Shown: in pieces, positions 8,724-18,571 of the stretch | Numbering within the stretch: position 1 is the stretch's first letter | Layout: the number at the start of each line of letters is the position of its first letter | Source of the DNA: an uncultured Granulosicoccus sp. | GTDB lineage: Bacteria > Pseudomonadota > Gammaproteobacteria > Granulosicoccales > Granulosicoccaceae | Assembly (NCBI GenBank): GCA_937991945.1 | Contig: CALKLO010000031.1 | Span: 1 to 64,000, forward strand | Direction: 5' to 3' | Length of the DNA stretch: 64,000 bases | Translations under genes and position numbers: made by a program | The notes under the pieces: generated by a model | Seen by the model: only the letters and a program-made list of their open reading frames with translations | What the model was told of the DNA's origin: nothing | The model's database searches: none

Positions 8724-9449
8724 TCAGGCGCAGTATCTAGCTGGGAGTTCGCGAACCGCGTAGCAACCTGATTCCAATGTTGCTCTGCGGCCTGGGTTGT
8801 TAAAAGACATGGCGCGTTTCATCTTAAGCGCATAGTCAAGATTGCCGACTGCCACACTTTCTGTCCATAAAGATTCTCGTTGAAGACGTCCTTGTAAGAG
8901 CTGAGCATTAATCCAACTTTCTCGAGTTTTCACGAACTCCTCCATCGAGGCAAAACCGAGCATGCTACAAACCCGCTCGTAATCAATCCGAGCACCTCTC
9001 CGTCGCGGATGCTTGGTCTCGTGATAACCACTGCACGCCCATTCCTCCGGGTGTGAAACCTCGCCTGCTCGTACCATGTTCAAGTCGATGTATGTCAGAC
9101 ACCGGGACAAATGCTCATTAGATTGTACGGCTGTCGCGTGATACCGATCATCCCAAAAAGCACCGGTACGATTTTGCCTCTTGTTAAATTCCTGAGCAGT
9201 TCTGCCGGCGATGAGCTGCATGGCTTTGGGTATGGAATCGTTGCCATGATCATGAACTAACAAGTGGATATGATTGGACGTCACGATGTAATTCAGCACG
9301 CTAAGCCCGTAACGACGACGCGCTTGATACAACCAATAGAGCCAACGTCGTCGATCGACTTGGAATCTAAGTAGAAATTGCTTTTGATGGCAACGCTGCG
9401 TGATATGCCAGACCTGCCCAGCAATAAAATGGCGATTTGCTCTAGCCAT
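8724..9449 (-). CDS. REP-associated tyrosine transposase (RAYT, Y1_Tnp family)
   Basis: Single-strand DNA transposase of the IS200-related TnpA-REP group, which are usually single-copy and linked to short palindromic repeats. The 241 residues contain the metal-binding HxH motif at His60-Ile61-His62 (TSNHIHLL) and the catalytic tyrosine near 120 in LTYIDLNMVRAG, both intact. The FWDDRYHATAV segment is also typical. It has its own AT-rich flanks and is bracketed by a 14-bp inverted repeat. There is no partner tnpB gene. Being intact between hrpA and a SPOR-domain gene, it looks like a resident or fairly recent insertion. Confidence 0.92.
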   Translation of the reverse strand: MARANRHFIAGQVWHITQRCHQKQFLLRFQVDRRRWLYWLYQARRRYGLSVLNYIVTSNHIHLLVHDHGNDSIPKAMQLIAGRTAQEFNKRQNRTGAFWDDRYHATAVQSNEHLSRCLTYIDLNMVRAGEVSHPEEWACSGYHETKHPRRRGARIDYERVCSMLGFASMEEFVKTRESWINAQLLQGRLQRESLWTESVAVGNLDYALKMKRAMSFNNPGRRATLESGCYAVRELPARYCA

Positions 9450-12182: not shown

Positions 12183-14369
12183 TCAGAACAAATCGACAGG
12201 ATCTACATCGATAGACCAACGGCACTTACGCGTACCCGGCAAGTGATCAATTCCGGCACTGAGTCGGAATAAACCGTCATTGAGCGTTGATCGTTTGTCT
12301 GACTGGAGTAACAGCTGCGCTCGAAAGCGTCCGCCCAAACGTTCCATGGGAGCCGGTGCAGGCCCCATCACATCAAGCGTACCAATCTTTCCCAGCTCCA
12401 GAAACTCAGCGACCTGCAATAGAAAAGCGTGCGCTTCCCGCGCATCCGTAGCCTCAGCTCTAACCAGCGCCATGAAGGAGAAAGGCGGCAAGTCTGCCAT
12501 TCGTCGATCATCCATCGCAACATTGGCAAACGTCTCATAGCCTTCTTTAACCAACGTTTGCAGCATCGGGTTGTCAGGGTTTCGCGTTTGAATGAGCACG
12601 GTACCTGCTCGTGATTCACGGCCCGCTCGCCCAGCCACTTGAACGATTAATTGCCCCATATGCTCCAGTGAGCGAAAGTCTGTTCCGAACAAGCCTCGAT
12701 CGGCATCCAAGATACACACCAGAGTGAGCTTGGGAAAATGGTGCCCCTTGGCCAACATTTGAGTACCTACCAAAATCCGGGCCTCACCCGTTATGGCTCT
12801 GTCAAGTTGTCTCTCAAGCTCACCTTTACGTCGCGTACTATCCCTGTCTATTCTGGCAATCGGCACATCTGGGAACGCCTCGACCAACGCATCCGTGATG
12901 CGTTCAGTACCATAGCCAACGCGATCTAAATTCGGCGACTGACAGCTATCACACGCAACCGGCATTTGCCGCTCAGAGCCGCAGTGATGGCACCTCAACT
13001 GATTGGTTCGTACATGTACCGTCATATGCGCATCGCAGCGGTGACAGTCAGCTGCCGCCCCACAATCGTTACACAATAAAGTCGGCGCAAAACCACGCCG
13101 ATTGATGAAGACCAGCGCCTGACCATCCTGCTCCAAGTGAGTCTTGATGTGATCAATGAGTCGATCACTCATCCCCTCAATCAATTTCCTGCGCCGAATA
13201 TCCAACAGGGCAAGAGTGGGAGGCACCGCATCACCGGCACGCTGTGTCAGCGGCAGCTCAATTAATCGTCCGGTGCTTACATTGTTCAGGGTTTCAAACG
13301 AGGGAGTGGCTGTCCCCAACACGATAGGACAACTTCTATCCCGAGCTCTCATCATGGCTAGGTCACGCGCATGGTAGCGAAACCCATCTTGCTGTTTGAG
13401 CGATCCATCGTGCTCTTCATCAACAATAATGAGTCCCAGGCGCGGCATCGCCGCCAATATGGAAGAGCGCGTTCCAATGACGACATCGGCATGCCCCAAG
13501 GCCGCACACACCCAATTTTGTAAGCGCTCCGTGTCATTGAGCCCAGAATGAAGACTGACTAAGCAGCCGTTCAAACGGTGTTCAAAACGAGACATAAGTT
13601 GTGGTGTCAAAGAGATTTCCGGCACCAACACCAACGATTGCAGACCCCTCGCACTCGCCTCTTCAATACAGCGCAAATATACTTCGGTCTTACCGCTGCC
13701 AGTAACTCCCTTGAGAAGAAAGCCTTGGAAAGTGCCTAAGCTAGATTGAATGGCTTCAACAGCGCTTGCTTGTTCAGCCAACAGAGTGGGTCCTTGACCC
13801 AAAGCAGCGTTGGATGGCACCTGACTAACCATCTCAACACTCACCCAGCCTTTCTCAATCAGTGCTTTTATTGATGCTCGCCAGCGAGGGCTAATCAGCC
13901 GTAGACTTGCAGCCGGTACCGCTTGACCTTCACGCTCTTGCAAACACGCCATTAGCTGTTGCTGTACAACGCCACCTTTGTTGTGCTCAGCCTCAATTTG
14001 GGTCGGCAGCCAACGGAAAAATTCTAACTCCGCTAATTGATAAGGCTTTCCGCGTCGCAACAACACAGGCAATGCAGAACTCAACACCTCACCCAACGGA
14101 TGGTGGTAGTAGCGACTGGCCCATTGCAACAGAGTCATTAAATCTGGCGGCAATACAGGTTCTGTGTCGAATATTTTATAAATAGCGCGCAGCTTGTTTT
14201 CCGGCACGCTGCTCTGCTCAATTTCACCAACAACCACGCCTGTAACGGAACGGCGACCAAACGGCACCAACACCCGAAGACCAGGAACGATGGCTTGCGA
14301 CTTTTCCCAACGGTAGTCGAACAATCCAAATAACGGAGAGGGAACAGCAATTTGTACCAGCCTACTCAT
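12183..14369 (-). CDS. priA: Primosomal protein N' (replication restart helicase PriA)
   Basis: Superfamily 2 DNA helicase that recognises abandoned replication forks and starts replisome reloading. The 728 residues contain the N-terminal DNA-binding domain, Walker A GVTGSGKT at 221-228, the Walker B motif IIVDEEHDGSLKQQ, and the zinc-binding insertion with paired cysteines (CNDCGAAADCHRCDAH, then CHHCGSE and CDSC). Helicase motif QVAGRAGR is intact. The start at 14369 gives the usual MSRLVQIAVPSPLFGLFDYRW opening. About 90 bases upstream of the start lies a cluster of DnaA boxes, so the promoter may respond to DnaA. Confidence 0.98.
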   Translation of the reverse strand: MSRLVQIAVPSPLFGLFDYRWEKSQAIVPGLRVLVPFGRRSVTGVVVGEIEQSSVPENKLRAIYKIFDTEPVLPPDLMTLLQWASRYYHHPLGEVLSSALPVLLRRGKPYQLAELEFFRWLPTQIEAEHNKGGVVQQQLMACLQEREGQAVPAASLRLISPRWRASIKALIEKGWVSVEMVSQVPSNAALGQGPTLLAEQASAVEAIQSSLGTFQGFLLKGVTGSGKTEVYLRCIEEASARGLQSLVLVPEISLTPQLMSRFEHRLNGCLVSLHSGLNDTERLQNWVCAALGHADVVIGTRSSILAAMPRLGLIIVDEEHDGSLKQQDGFRYHARDLAMMRARDRSCPIVLGTATPSFETLNNVSTGRLIELPLTQRAGDAVPPTLALLDIRRRKLIEGMSDRLIDHIKTHLEQDGQALVFINRRGFAPTLLCNDCGAAADCHRCDAHMTVHVRTNQLRCHHCGSERQMPVACDSCQSPNLDRVGYGTERITDALVEAFPDVPIARIDRDSTRRKGELERQLDRAITGEARILVGTQMLAKGHHFPKLTLVCILDADRGLFGTDFRSLEHMGQLIVQVAGRAGRESRAGTVLIQTRNPDNPMLQTLVKEGYETFANVAMDDRRMADLPPFSFMALVRAEATDAREAHAFLLQVAEFLELGKIGTLDVMGPAPAPMERLGGRFRAQLLLQSDKRSTLNDGLFRLSAGIDHLPGTRKCRWSIDVDPVDLF

Positions 14370-14461
14370 CGGCGCTCAGCCCACACGATATCGGCATTTA
14401 AGACAGCCACACCTAGCTTCCGAAGCAATGGACGGTTCATTGACGCCTGTCCTTGAACATC

Positions 14462-14496
14462 TTATCCACAAAATCTGTGGATAAGGTTGTGGAAAA
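14462..14496. promoter_or_regulatory. DnaA-box cluster upstream of priA
   Basis: Two perfect DnaA boxes face each other: TTATCCACA at 14462-14470 and its inverse TGTGGATAA at 14476-14484, forming a 10-bp-arm palindrome with a five-base loop. A third site, TGTGGAAAA at 14488-14496, differs from the consensus at one base. The group lies in the 470-base gap (14370-14839) between priA and pntB; the rest of that gap has no convincing gene. It could be an origin element, a DnaA-titrating or DnaA-reactivating site, or a DnaA operator for priA. Sequence matches are exact; function is inferred. Confidence 0.65.
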
Positions 14497-14520
14497 CCTT
14501 TTGAAATCGATCGCAGCTGC

Positions 14521-14594
14521 AACTGTGCAAACAGTTCTGACAAATTGCATATTATTTGAACAAAACCATTTTAATGTTTATTTTCAATTAGTTA
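14521..14594. other. AT-rich block beside DnaA boxes
   Basis: Starts with the perfect hairpin AACTGT-GCAA-ACAGTT (14521-14536), then 14541-14594 is about 80 percent A+T with runs of T and A. In an origin such a block would be a candidate DNA-unwinding element. The small open frame at 14453-14674 that covers it has unconvincing composition and is not called a gene. Confidence 0.35.
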
Positions 14595-14666
14595 CAAGAG
14601 GTAAGTCATGTGGAATCACAAACCAATACAGCAAAACTAACCAACGAGCAACGCCTTTTCGTCGCT

Positions 14667-14675
14667 GTGCATAAG
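14667..14675 (-). promoter_or_regulatory. Distal DnaA box
   Basis: TGTGCATAA on the plus strand, the inverse of TTATGCACA, a perfect match to the DnaA consensus TTATNCACA. It is about 180 bases from the paired boxes and on the other side of the AT-rich block. Confidence 0.5.
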
Positions 14676-14839
14676 CCTTATTAAAAATAGCTGAGTCAAG
14701 CCTATATCGCGACAATATTTCGACATAAAACCGTAGCTTAGGTGCCTCTTTTCAATTCGAAATGAGCCAATTTACTGCCGCAATCTCAGTCCTTCGACAT
14801 CAACGAAAAGCAAGAAGTAACCTATTTAAGGCGTTGCCT

Positions 14840-16228
14840 CTACTCTAGGCCCTTGATGGCTGAAATGAGGTTTTGCACAGAAACCCGCGCATCGCCAAAC
14901 AAGACTCTCGTTACAGGGGCAAACAACAAAGGATTTTCAACACCCGCGTACCCTGTACCATCGCCTCGCTTTAGAACGATAACGCGCTTGGCGTTATCAA
15001 CCTCTAACACGGGCATTCCAAACAAAGGCGAATCGCTATCAGTGCGAGCAGCCGAGTTCACTATGTCGTTAGCACCAACCACTAGAACAACATCGACTTG
15101 TGAAAACTCTGCATTGATATCACTCAGGTCCTGTATTTTTTCATACGGCACGCCTGCTTCGGCCAGCAAGACATTCATATGACCAGGCATACGCCCAGCA
15201 ACCGGATGAATAGCAAAACTGGTTTGCACACCACGCTCATCCAGCAATTGAGTTAATTCACGCAACTTATGTTGAGCCTGGGCTGTTGCCATGCCGTAGC
15301 CGGGCACTATGACAACCCTACCTGCATACCCCATATCAACTGCAGCATCGCGAGCATCAATCGTGTTCACATGATCTCGATCGGTAGATTCAGTTTGAGT
15401 ATCATCCGTTATACCGAAACCCGAATACATAATTTCACTGAGCCTCCGGTTGACGCTTCTGGCCATCAGTCGAGTCAGCAAAGAACCTGCGGCAAAAACG
15501 ATTGTTCCTGCCACGACCATAGCCGGGTTTTCTAAGACGAACCCATCAAAGGCGACCGCCAGTCCGGTGAGTGCGTTATACAACGAAATAAGCACAGGCA
15601 TATCAGCTGCAGAGGTCGGTAAGGTCATGAGCAAGCCAAAACACATGGCTAACGCAACAAACAGCAATACCAGTGCTGGATGAGCGGTAGATGATGCTGC
15701 CAGTATTAAGCCCAGCAACAGGACAAGAGAGCCACTGGCAATATAGGCCACCTGTCGTTGAGCAAAGCCTGCACGGCGAGAGAAGTGACCTCGTAAGCGT
15801 AAGTAGGCAAAAAAGCTACCGGCAAACGCAATACAACCAATTAGCCCACCCAACACCGCTAATGACTTAACTAACGGACCGTGTTCAGACACGCTCAACA
15901 ATACAAGCGTGGCGATACCACCAGCTGCGATACCACCCAGTGAATTGTATAGGGCGATCATTTGGGGAATTCGCGTCATATCAATGCGACGAGCATGCAA
16001 CAACGACACGCCTCCACCCACACTCATTGCTGCAAGAATCAACAGCTGGTTTTGACGCAAGTCCGGATGGAAATACATGGAGGCGATGGCGATGAACATA
16101 CCCACCCCTGCACACCAAATACCTGAACGCGCATTATTGGGCGAGCTCAGTCTGCGCAATCCGATAACAAACAACAAGGTGGTTGCAAACCAAGCGAGTT
16201 GCAGACCTAGCGGCACCGAATCATTCAT
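14840..16228 (-). CDS. pntB: NAD(P) transhydrogenase subunit beta
   Basis: Inner-membrane subunit of the proton-translocating transhydrogenase, which uses the proton gradient to reduce NADP+ with NADH. The 462 residues equal the E. coli PntB length. An N-terminal membrane part with eight or nine hydrophobic segments is followed by the NADP(H)-binding domain III, with the motif VIVPGYGMATAQAQH and the conserved VVLVVGANDIVN and FGMPVLEVDNAKRVIVLKR segments. Its start overlaps the pntAB stop by four bases, so translation is probably coupled. It is the last gene of the pntAA-pntAB-pntB operon. Confidence 0.97.
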   Translation of the reverse strand: MNDSVPLGLQLAWFATTLLFVIGLRRLSSPNNARSGIWCAGVGMFIAIASMYFHPDLRQNQLLILAAMSVGGGVSLLHARRIDMTRIPQMIALYNSLGGIAAGGIATLVLLSVSEHGPLVKSLAVLGGLIGCIAFAGSFFAYLRLRGHFSRRAGFAQRQVAYIASGSLVLLLGLILAASSTAHPALVLLFVALAMCFGLLMTLPTSAADMPVLISLYNALTGLAVAFDGFVLENPAMVVAGTIVFAAGSLLTRLMARSVNRRLSEIMYSGFGITDDTQTESTDRDHVNTIDARDAAVDMGYAGRVVIVPGYGMATAQAQHKLRELTQLLDERGVQTSFAIHPVAGRMPGHMNVLLAEAGVPYEKIQDLSDINAEFSQVDVVLVVGANDIVNSAARTDSDSPLFGMPVLEVDNAKRVIVLKRGDGTGYAGVENPLLFAPVTRVLFGDARVSVQNLISAIKGLE

Positions 16229-16602
16229 TCTTTATTGCTCACAGAATCTGTACCTGTCGAGCGTTTAGTGTCAGCACTAGAGGCAATCCCCAAAGCGGTA
16301 ATACCAGAATAGTTACCGTTTTTAACCGTGGACTTGTCAAACAATGCCAGCATACGATCGGTGACGACAAAGCCACCAACGACGTTGGCGGCAGCCGCAG
16401 CAACGGCAATAAAGCCGATAATTTGCTCAAGCGCCGTATCTGCGCTGCCTAGCGCTAGCATGGCTCCCGCCAATACAATGCCATGGATAAAATTTGAACC
16501 CGACATCATCGGTGTGTGCAATATGGAGGGCACCCGAGCTATAAGCACATAACCTGCAACCCCTGCCAACAACACCAAATACAGACCACTTACACCACTC
16601 AT
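16225..16602 (-). CDS. pntAB: NAD(P) transhydrogenase alpha subunit, membrane part
   Basis: Small membrane subunit (domain II part) of a three-polypeptide transhydrogenase, as in Rhodospirillum rubrum. The 125 residues contain three or four hydrophobic segments and the conserved NFIHGIVLAGAM and VVGGFVVTDRMLALF stretches that match the C-terminal membrane region of fused E. coli PntA. Four-base overlaps at both ends (with pntAA upstream and pntB downstream) point to tight translational coupling. Confidence 0.93.
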   Translation of the reverse strand: MSGVSGLYLVLLAGVAGYVLIARVPSILHTPMMSGSNFIHGIVLAGAMLALGSADTALEQIIGFIAVAAAAANVVGGFVVTDRMLALFDKSTVKNGNYSGITALGIASSADTKRSTGTDSVSNKE

Positions 16603-18314
16603 GCCTTTAACTCCATCAGTTCCAATGCCTGACCAGACCAGTTTTGCTCTCTTATTTGATCGTCTAACTCTAGTTGTATCGATAACTTCTCAGTGCTCGC
16701 ATCATCAAGCGCTGCTATGTGTTGCAACTGGGTATAACCAAATGCATACAATCGCTCCTGCAATGCAGGCCCCACACCATTAATCAACGTTAGATCATCT
16801 ACTGGCACCGCATCATCAGTATCAACAGATGCACTGACACCATCTAATTTTTCCAAGTCAGACACTGACTGTTCATCTGGCCAATGAGCCAGCTCTTCAT
16901 CATCACCCAGAGCATCATGCTTACCGCTCTCTACATCATTTGTATTAGCAGAATCTTTTTGCTCAATTGCACTTACAGCATCAGAGTCCGTAACCGATTG
17001 TTGATTGGCTGAACCCTCTGCGTTTATAGGAAGGCCATCAACCTGTGCTGGCAACGATTCACTCGACGCATCTTGCTGCTCAGCACTCGAGGAATTATCA
17101 GCGCTATCTGATGACTCATCGCTTAACCAGCCAGCGGTTTGATCGGGCAACTCTTGCGCACGATGAACAACGCCACCAAACGGGAAGCACTCTACGTCTA
17201 ATAGTTTGGCGGTACCTTCATGATGAATTTGACCATCATGTAGCAACACACACCCTGCGATTAATTCATCACCAGCATCCAGTTCGACCTCACCATTGTT
17301 GATGATCAAGTCCAACATGTTGTAGATATTTCTAGAGTACATTTCACTGGCGTGAACAGCGCCATGACTTGGCAAATTCAGTGGCCCAACGATAAGCGTC
17401 TCGTTATGGTAATAGTGCTCACCAATACGCGTAAGCTCACAATTTCCACCAGAAGATGCAGCCATGTCGACGATAACGGATTCCGGCAACATGCCGTCGA
17501 CCATATCTTCAGTGATGATTCTTGGTGCATGCCGACCAGGAATAGCTGCCGCACAAATCACGACATGCGCTTTAGCTAAGTGCTCAGCCAGCACGTCATG
17601 CTGTTTCTGTTTTTCATCCTTACGCAAGGCTCTGGCAAATCCACCTGCACCTTCAACTTCCACGCCGGTATCGACCATACGAGCACCGACTGATTCAATC
17701 TGTTCTTTGGCTGCTCGACGTATGTCATAGGCTTCAACCTGGGCACCCAAACGCTTGGATGTCGCGATGGCTTGTAGACCTGCGACACCTGCACCAATAA
17801 CCAATACTCTGGACGGCCGTATGGTCCCGGCAGCTGTAGTCAGCATGGGGAATAACCGAGGTGATAACTCTGCTGCCAACAAGGCCGCTTTGTAACCTGC
17901 CACCGTGGCTTGCGATGAAAGAGCATCCATGGGCTGTGCCCGCGTTGTTCTGGGCAGGTGATCCATAGCAAGCAAGGTAATGCGCCGATCTCTGAGCGCT
18001 ATGACTTCAGCGGTGTGCTGAAACGCCGACATGGTACAAATCAGCAGACACCCGAGAGGCATGAGCTCAATTTCTTCGACCGTTGGACACACCACAGTGA
18101 CGACGATATCAGCAATCGAGACCAGCTCGGCATAAGTCTCTTTTACGGTCGCGCCGTGGTAATCCTCGTCATGAAAGCTAGCAGCATGTCCACATTCAGC
18201 CTGAATATGCACTTGCACACCACTCTGTATCAGACGCTCGGCACGCGACGGATCCAACGCAACTCGGCGCTCACCGTGACGACTCTCAAGGGGTACAGCA
18301 ATAATCAATGACAC
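16599..18314 (-). CDS. pntAA: NAD(P) transhydrogenase alpha subunit with C-terminal HhH extension
   Basis: Cytosolic NAD(H)-binding domain I subunit of transhydrogenase. I choose the GTG at 18314 as start: an AGAGG ribosome-binding sequence precedes it and the product then opens with the standard SLIIAVPLESRHGERRVAL. An in-frame ATG at 18386 would add 24 unconserved residues. From the GTG, residues 1-392 are a normal domain I (nucleotide motif VLVIGAGVAGLQAIATSKRLGA), close to the 384-residue R. rubrum protein. Residues 393-504 are an acidic, serine-rich linker, and 505-571 form a helix-hairpin-helix-like domain (LTLINGVGPALQERLYAFG). That extension is absent from characterised PntAA proteins known to me. 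Confidence 0.94.
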   Translation of the reverse strand: MSLIIAVPLESRHGERRVALDPSRAERLIQSGVQVHIQAECGHAASFHDEDYHGATVKETYAELVSIADIVVTVVCPTVEEIELMPLGCLLICTMSAFQHTAEVIALRDRRITLLAMDHLPRTTRAQPMDALSSQATVAGYKAALLAAELSPRLFPMLTTAAGTIRPSRVLVIGAGVAGLQAIATSKRLGAQVEAYDIRRAAKEQIESVGARMVDTGVEVEGAGGFARALRKDEKQKQHDVLAEHLAKAHVVICAAAIPGRHAPRIITEDMVDGMLPESVIVDMAASSGGNCELTRIGEHYYHNETLIVGPLNLPSHGAVHASEMYSRNIYNMLDLIINNGEVELDAGDELIAGCVLLHDGQIHHEGTAKLLDVECFPFGGVVHRAQELPDQTAGWLSDESSDSADNSSSAEQQDASSESLPAQVDGLPINAEGSANQQSVTDSDAVSAIEQKDSANTNDVESGKHDALGDDEELAHWPDEQSVSDLEKLDGVSASVDTDDAVPVDDLTLINGVGPALQERLYAFGYTQLQHIAALDDASTEKLSIQLELDDQIREQNWSGQALELMELKA

Positions 18315-18571
18315 AACACACCTCTGTCGCAAAAGCTGACTACCTGCCGTTAAATCTGACTCACTGTAAGTAGAGTCGAGAATCAACAGGTCAGACGATT
18401 CATGAAAAGCTTAGGCTAGGGTTATACTATCTAAAGAGCGCAGTTTAACCGCTCTTGCGCGCTTTGCGCCTGATTTGAGGCACGGTTGTTAGATATGTGT
18501 CGGCGAACTCCAAATACAGGTTTTACGCGTACAACACCTTCCAACCTTTGCAACGGCCTGGCGCTTAGTCC

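Follow-up and report, generated by a model that had tools for sequence, protein, structure and literature searches.

A candidate DARS-type DnaA-control site with a long-range distal DnaA box, located upstream of priA in Granulosicoccus and conserved in Gammaproteobacteria

What is a cluster of DnaA boxes doing directly upstream of the replication-restart gene priA in an uncultured Granulosicoccus: does it start replication, control DnaA, or regulate priA? The window analysed here is a stretch of 64,000 nucleotides, and the gap in question (14370-14839, between priA and pntB) contains no ORF of at least 100 aa, in agreement with the gene-free 470-base gap reported in a preliminary description made from the sequence alone. 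Other features listed there are equally real. The single-mismatch DnaA box at 14488-14496 is the weaker box TTTTCCACA on the minus strand, the small hairpin is the inverted repeat of boxes I and II itself (CTTATCCACA-AAATC-TGTGGATAAG), and the 54-base block of about 80% A+T is the most A+T-rich block of that length (81%, compared with 52% for the whole window). All three perfect boxes are present as well, the third at 14666-14674 and not, as had been given, at 14667-14675. Box I is separated from the priA start codon by 92 bp, and the genes upstream of the element are the pnt genes (Table 1); the NCBIfam match of pntB is full-length but falls under the curated cut-off (356.9 vs 689 bits).

Table 1. 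Features of the priA-pntB gap and its flanking genes, in window coordinates
Feature	Position	Strand	Description
priA	12183..14369	-	Gene immediately downstream of the element; scores above the cut-off of the NCBIfam equivalog PRK05580
Whole element, 213 bp	14462..14674	-	Distal box, IHF-like site, Fis-like site and DARS-type core, reading towards priA
Core DnaA box I	14462..14470	+	Perfect TTATCCACA; opposed to boxes II and III
Core DnaA box II	14476..14484	-	Perfect TTATCCACA; 5 bp from box I
Core DnaA box III	14488..14496	-	Weaker box TTTTCCACA; 3 bp from box II
A+T-rich block	14544..14597		81% A+T; contains the IHF-like and Fis-like sites
Fis-like site	14547..14561	-	GTTCAAATAATATGC, perfect match to GNNNAWWWWWTNNNC; -77 from box II
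IHF-like site	14582..14594	-	TAACTAATTGAAA, one mismatch to YAANNNNTTGATW; -110 from box II
Distal DnaA box	14666..14674	-	Perfect TTATGCACA; 190 bp from box II, oriented as boxes II and III
pntB	14840..16228	-	Upstream neighbour; best NCBIfam match Re/Si-specific NAD(P)(+) transhydrogenase subunit beta

The number of perfect DnaA boxes in the window as a whole is ordinary, since four were found where shuffled sequences give 2.65. They are clustered beyond chance, as had been noted: three perfect boxes within 470 bases have a Poisson probability of ~1e-6, uncorrected for the number of possible places. Conservation, described below, is far stronger evidence than this figure. Two further candidates for the gap were discarded. 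The hairpin does not qualify as a transcription terminator (none was found in the scan, and no T-run follows it), and for a structured RNA Rfam returned only a sub-threshold match to rli38 (E 1.1, score 23.8 vs 49). Elsewhere in the window, an IS200-like Y1/REP-associated tyrosine transposase (8724-9449, minus strand) lies beside the priA-argS-ftsN cluster, and a PntA-type alpha subunit of 595 aa (16599-18386, minus strand) extends ~200 residues beyond the AlaDH/PNT domains, with NCBIfam matches of this C-terminal part only to low-complexity-looking tails of unrelated proteins.

Read on the minus strand, the core of the element is TTTTCCACA-ACC-TTATCCACA-GATTT-TGTGGATAA, a 9-3-9-5-9 layout (TTTTCCACA-3-TTATCCACA-5-inverted TTATCCACA) in which boxes III and II stand in tandem and box I opposes them. 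The same 3- and 5-bp spacers and the same opposed box I are found in both E. coli DnaA reactivation sites as extracted from the MG1655 record, DARS1 (TAATACACA-TGG-TTATCCACA-GGAAT-AGTGGATAA) and DARS2 (TCTTACACC-ATG-TTATCCACA-GAAAG-CTGGGATAA), while the MG1655 sequences of datA and oriC have other box arrangements. The spacing common to DARS1 and DARS2, with box I opposing boxes II and III, is the shared feature of DARS cores (PMC5742627), and head-to-head binding of DnaA to boxes I and II drives the release of ADP (PMC5742627; PMC8682772). Of the readings first offered for this gap, the DARS-like one is well supported by this identical core geometry. Not noticed initially were the exact DARS spacing, the constant 190-bp distance of the distal box, the putative IHF and Fis sites, a second copy and the class-wide conservation.

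A pattern search for the distal box, a variable gap and the core found the full layout in 118 of 369 sampled genomes of Gammaproteobacteria, about a third, representing 90 of 271 genera; a reversed-pattern control gave no matches among the same genomes. Conservation of the boxes in relatives, proposed earlier as a check, extends across the class. Named carriers among the matches listed include, besides Granulosicoccus, Methylomonas, Methylobacter, Cycloclasticus, Marinicella, Ectothiorhodospira, Woeseiaceae and Thiotrichaceae. In a phylum-wide sample, four genomes carry the element, all of them Gammaproteobacteria, and none was found in the other classes sampled. The core alone occurs in 130 of the 369 class genomes, and a core with each spacer one base longer in 0 of 340. 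An exact TTATNCACA, which the core search did not require, is present at the fixed distance in 108 of the 150 cores listed, as counted by pairing two lists by hand. When elements are laid out without gaps and anchored on box II, the distal box lies 186-193 bp away in 116 of 121, with a peak at 189-190 bp, which by arithmetic corresponds to 18 helical turns.

The gap-free consensus of the 121 elements revealed two further conserved blocks beside the DnaA boxes, which we scored against known consensus motifs for IHF (YAANNNNTTGATW, at most one mismatch) and Fis (GNNNAWWWWWTNNNC, perfect matches). The IHF-like site begins at -110/-111 in 76/121 elements (background 0.0008 per position). Perfect Fis-like matches begin at -78 in 27/121 and at -77 in another 6/121 (background 0.0002). 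Both greatly exceed background although neither was part of the search pattern, and the same peaks recur in a further set of 120 elements from named genomes that shares some members with the first. In the window, the centres of the Fis-like (14554) and IHF-like (14588) sites flank position 14574, the midpoint of the two DnaA-binding parts. The host genome encodes DnaA, an Hda-like protein, IHF-alpha and a Fis-like protein, the match of the last spanning its model but scoring below the curated cut-off.

The closest known system is E. coli DARS2 (rppH-mutH), which has the same three-box core with an opposed box I, an IHF site at the same distance and an involvement of Fis. By our own arithmetic, the DARS2 IHF site AATCAGAGAATTG is at about -97 to -109, counted from box II, the same place as the site at -110 in the window and the class peak at -110/-111. 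Beyond IHF, DARS2 also has a further box in box II orientation (TTTTCCACA, which we take as box V) at about -127, whereas the distal box of our element, TTATNCACA, stands at -189/-190. The essential Fis sites of DARS2 (FBS2-3) lie beyond the IHF site and adjoin box V (PMC4245941, PMC8682772), whereas the conserved Fis-like site of the element, at -78 to -64, lies between the core and IHF. With its Fis-like site on the opposite flank of IHF, the element is no orthologue of DARS2 as far as the regulatory part is concerned; it may still belong to the DARS class, as DARS1 needs no Fis. DARS1 (bioD-uvrB) shares the spacing and orientation of the core but differs in having a short accessory region, in needing neither IHF nor Fis in vitro, and in lacking an exact distal box at -189; its closest candidate is TTATCCCCA at -209, with one mismatch. 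That box (L105:4331-4339), in box II orientation and 20 bp beyond the distal-box distance of the element, may be chance or a relic. The loci differ too: the element is found at priA (and orn) rather than at mutH, and no uvrB, mutH or rppH lies within 700 bp of it in any locus checked, the neighbours being priA/pntB here and orn/idh at the second copy. Genomic locus is, however, no functional criterion for a DARS.

How tightly is the element tied to priA? It lies directly upstream of this gene in 49 of 120 class loci, always in one orientation, and the core is mostly 80-170 bp from priA in the 30 priA-linked cases of the named-genome set. In the remaining 71 loci it is not next to priA and has the same geometry. 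In addition, priA loci were picked by protein alone and not by the element. Most of 30 such loci from the same genus and the same family have the element. Among those from further families it is complete in some, others retain the distal box and boxes II-III but lack box I, and roughly half show no recognisable trace of it; no such element precedes priA in E. coli. The priA-linked copies without box I (L008, L009, L032, L233, L237 and L243) all keep boxes II and III and the distal box, the latter carrying one mismatch in L032; most also have the IHF-like site, and together they make up a natural mutant series for box I function. Where a priA-linked copy and dnaA share a contig, they are ~159 kb apart here and 177 kb (G015), 154 kb (G017), 188 kb (G049), 248 kb (G054) and 308 kb (G023, of 7.78 Mb) apart in other genomes. 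Copies elsewhere can sit far from dnaA, at ~1 Mb in G115 and at 2.8 Mb in G023, the latter in an array next to orn.

The genome under study itself has a second copy (G000:C41:28261-28472), located just after orn, with rsgA divergent before orn. Pairwise identity was rejected as a measure of homology between the two copies, as the 76% given by the aligner is inflated by gaps, and motif positions were used instead. At the same place after orn, Granulosicoccus relatives have arrays of two to four units spaced ~480-650 bp apart. Complete or near-complete elements make up the tandem arrays in L382, L383, L384, L385, L388 and L389, which follow orn where the contig reaches it, and in several large Granulosicoccus genomes an array is present while the priA copy has lost box I. 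The order rsgA(-)-orn(+)-element holds for the second copy and for all examined Granulosicoccus arrays whose contig reaches orn; outside Granulosicoccus, no orn linkage was seen among the loci checked. The window copy is not downstream of orn. In E. coli the order is rsgA-orn-glyVXY-datA, with queG next, so that the rsgA-orn neighbourhood is common to datA and the second copy, and the IHF site of the latter reads CAACCTATTGAAT, compared with TAACCTATTGATA in datA. Taken together, order and motif suggest that datA and the orn copy may descend from one element.

Several explanations other than a DARS have to be weighed. An A+T-rich block that shares a gap free of genes with DnaA boxes and putative IHF and Fis sites recalls E. 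coli oriC and would suit the chromosomal origin, as first considered, or a second origin. Such a role is contradicted by the window's own 189-kb contig, where the cumulative GC skew falls steadily through 14.4 kb without a change of sign and reaches its minimum at 171,795, beside dnaA (C31:173554-174954) and the dnaN that follows it (recognised by eye in the sequence, not by profile search). That region has three TTATCCACA boxes of its own at 173.3-173.5 kb and is about 157-159 kb from the element. Unlike oriC, the element is DARS-like, away from the skew minimum and present in several copies per genome, and we give an origin function hardly any credence. Binding of DnaA, IHF and Fis might instead control transcription of priA, another of the early suggestions, and the one-sided placement upstream of the gene in 49 loci speaks for it. 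Two weak promoter-like sites lie on the priA strand inside the element, but they are barely above shuffles (0.7 expected). In many Granulosicoccus copies a TTGAC stands ~19 bp before the distal TTATGCACA (TTATGC; window 14666-14700, minus strand) and could belong to a promoter with a -10 element that overlaps this box. It was rejected as the -35 of a priA promoter because it is kept in many Granulosicoccus copies but not class-wide. The linkage could also reflect proximity to the origin, or read-through transcription displacing IHF, as has been described for datA (PMC10950094). Since most of the elements (71/120) occur without priA, the element is not just a priA promoter, and DnaA control of priA survives as a possible side role while failing as the sole function; as the main explanation we consider it improbable.

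The four boxes of each element, the several tandem copies in large Granulosicoccus genomes and the origin-proximal position of priA copies would also fit a DnaA-titrating site with no catalytic role, in which high-affinity boxes near the origin set the threshold for initiation. Titration, however, needs boxes and not a base-exact spacer such as that implied by the absence of cores with longer spacers, nor does it need a distal box fixed at 190 bp with IHF and Fis sites in between, and we rate it slightly lower still than the priA promoter. A datA-like site, at which IHF would join DnaA on the distal box to DnaA on the core and the complex would stimulate hydrolysis of DnaA-bound ATP, restraining initiation, deserves more attention, though it too appears unlikely. 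E. coli datA has DnaA boxes on both flanks of a single IHF site, one box on one side and a box pair on the other, much as the distal box and core are placed here, with the same order and orientations, including that of IHF (TTATCCACA, TAACCTATTGATA, and TTATTCACA with inverted TCATCCACA); apart from the tRNA genes, the second copy and the orn-reaching Granulosicoccus arrays match its gene order; and priA-linked copies with dnaA on the same contig are origin-proximal, as datA is. On the other hand, datA, which works by ATP hydrolysis, lacks both the 9-3-9-5-9 core and a conserved Fis site, its inverted pair being 3 bp apart and its box-to-box distance 162 bp, compared with 5 bp and 190 bp in the element. 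The head-to-head core is the hallmark of DARS and not of datA, and the orn linkage was not seen outside Granulosicoccus in the loci checked.

Among ADP release, ATP hydrolysis and titration, a DARS function is the most likely because of the base-exact head-to-head core. We therefore propose, with a probability of roughly 0.6, that the element is a DARS-type DnaA-control site, i.e. a non-coding site that would exchange the nucleotide bound to DnaA, in a variant with a long-range distal box. In its favour are the specificity of the spacing, a distal box that the search did not demand, the fixed positions of the IHF-like and Fis-like sites and the copies away from priA. Against it stand the lack of a box at -189 in E. 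coli DARS1 and DARS2 and the different placement of Fis, which make the regulatory part different; the position at neither known DARS locus; the priA copies without box I (L008, L009, L233, L237 and L243), when E. coli DARS2 needs both boxes I and II; and the resemblance of the distal box-IHF-core topology, together with the orn neighbourhood of the second copy, to datA, which has the opposite job.

From the sequence, geometry, conservation and context that we observe, we infer binding of DnaA, IHF and Fis, nucleotide exchange, looping and timing, which might proceed as follows. As on E. coli DARS, ADP-DnaA would occupy boxes III and II as a tandem, with the molecule on box I facing that on box II head-to-head; assembly on the core would promote the release of ADP, after which DnaA could reload with ATP. 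IHF (~104 bp from the core) and Fis (~71 bp) would introduce bends about halfway between core and distal box, and the DNA would so fold that DnaA bound at the latter is brought back to the core complex. A fold-back would require bends on either side of the point halfway between the two DnaA-binding parts, and the predicted bend sites are placed in this way. Contact of the distal DnaA with the core may then set activity, turning it on or off according to growth phase or cell cycle, and a role in priA expression may be added on top.

Detailed knowledge of DnaA reactivation sites is confined to E. coli; by sequence they are also known from its near relatives (Enterobacterales, Vibrio and Shewanella; PMC8682772). 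The open-access literature searched yielded neither a DARS beyond the relatives of E. coli nor DnaA boxes upstream of priA. The core is the same as in DARS2. In that literature we found neither a distal box at 189-190 bp nor the present arrangement of Fis and IHF sites, the linkage to priA or the wide host range. A further scenario, which we advance only tentatively and consider rather improbable, is that the element represents an ancestral gammaproteobacterial DnaA-control element, in which a DARS core was coupled to a distal box 18 turns away through an IHF/Fis fold, with DARS2 and datA as separate, diverged descendants (datA from the orn copy) and the priA-linked, origin-proximal site lost in E. 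coli.

An element of fixed geometry in more than 100 sampled genomes of other gammaproteobacterial families, frequently next to priA and close to the origin, would show control by DnaA reactivation to be both older and wider. At 213 bp, it lends itself to simple tests of how a DARS core is linked to a remote DnaA box by IHF and Fis bends, and its sequence offers a way into the origins of datA and DARS. If the ancestral scenario were true, reactivating and inactivating sites would share one origin, and many Gammaproteobacteria would regulate DnaA via a priA-linked, origin-proximal site.
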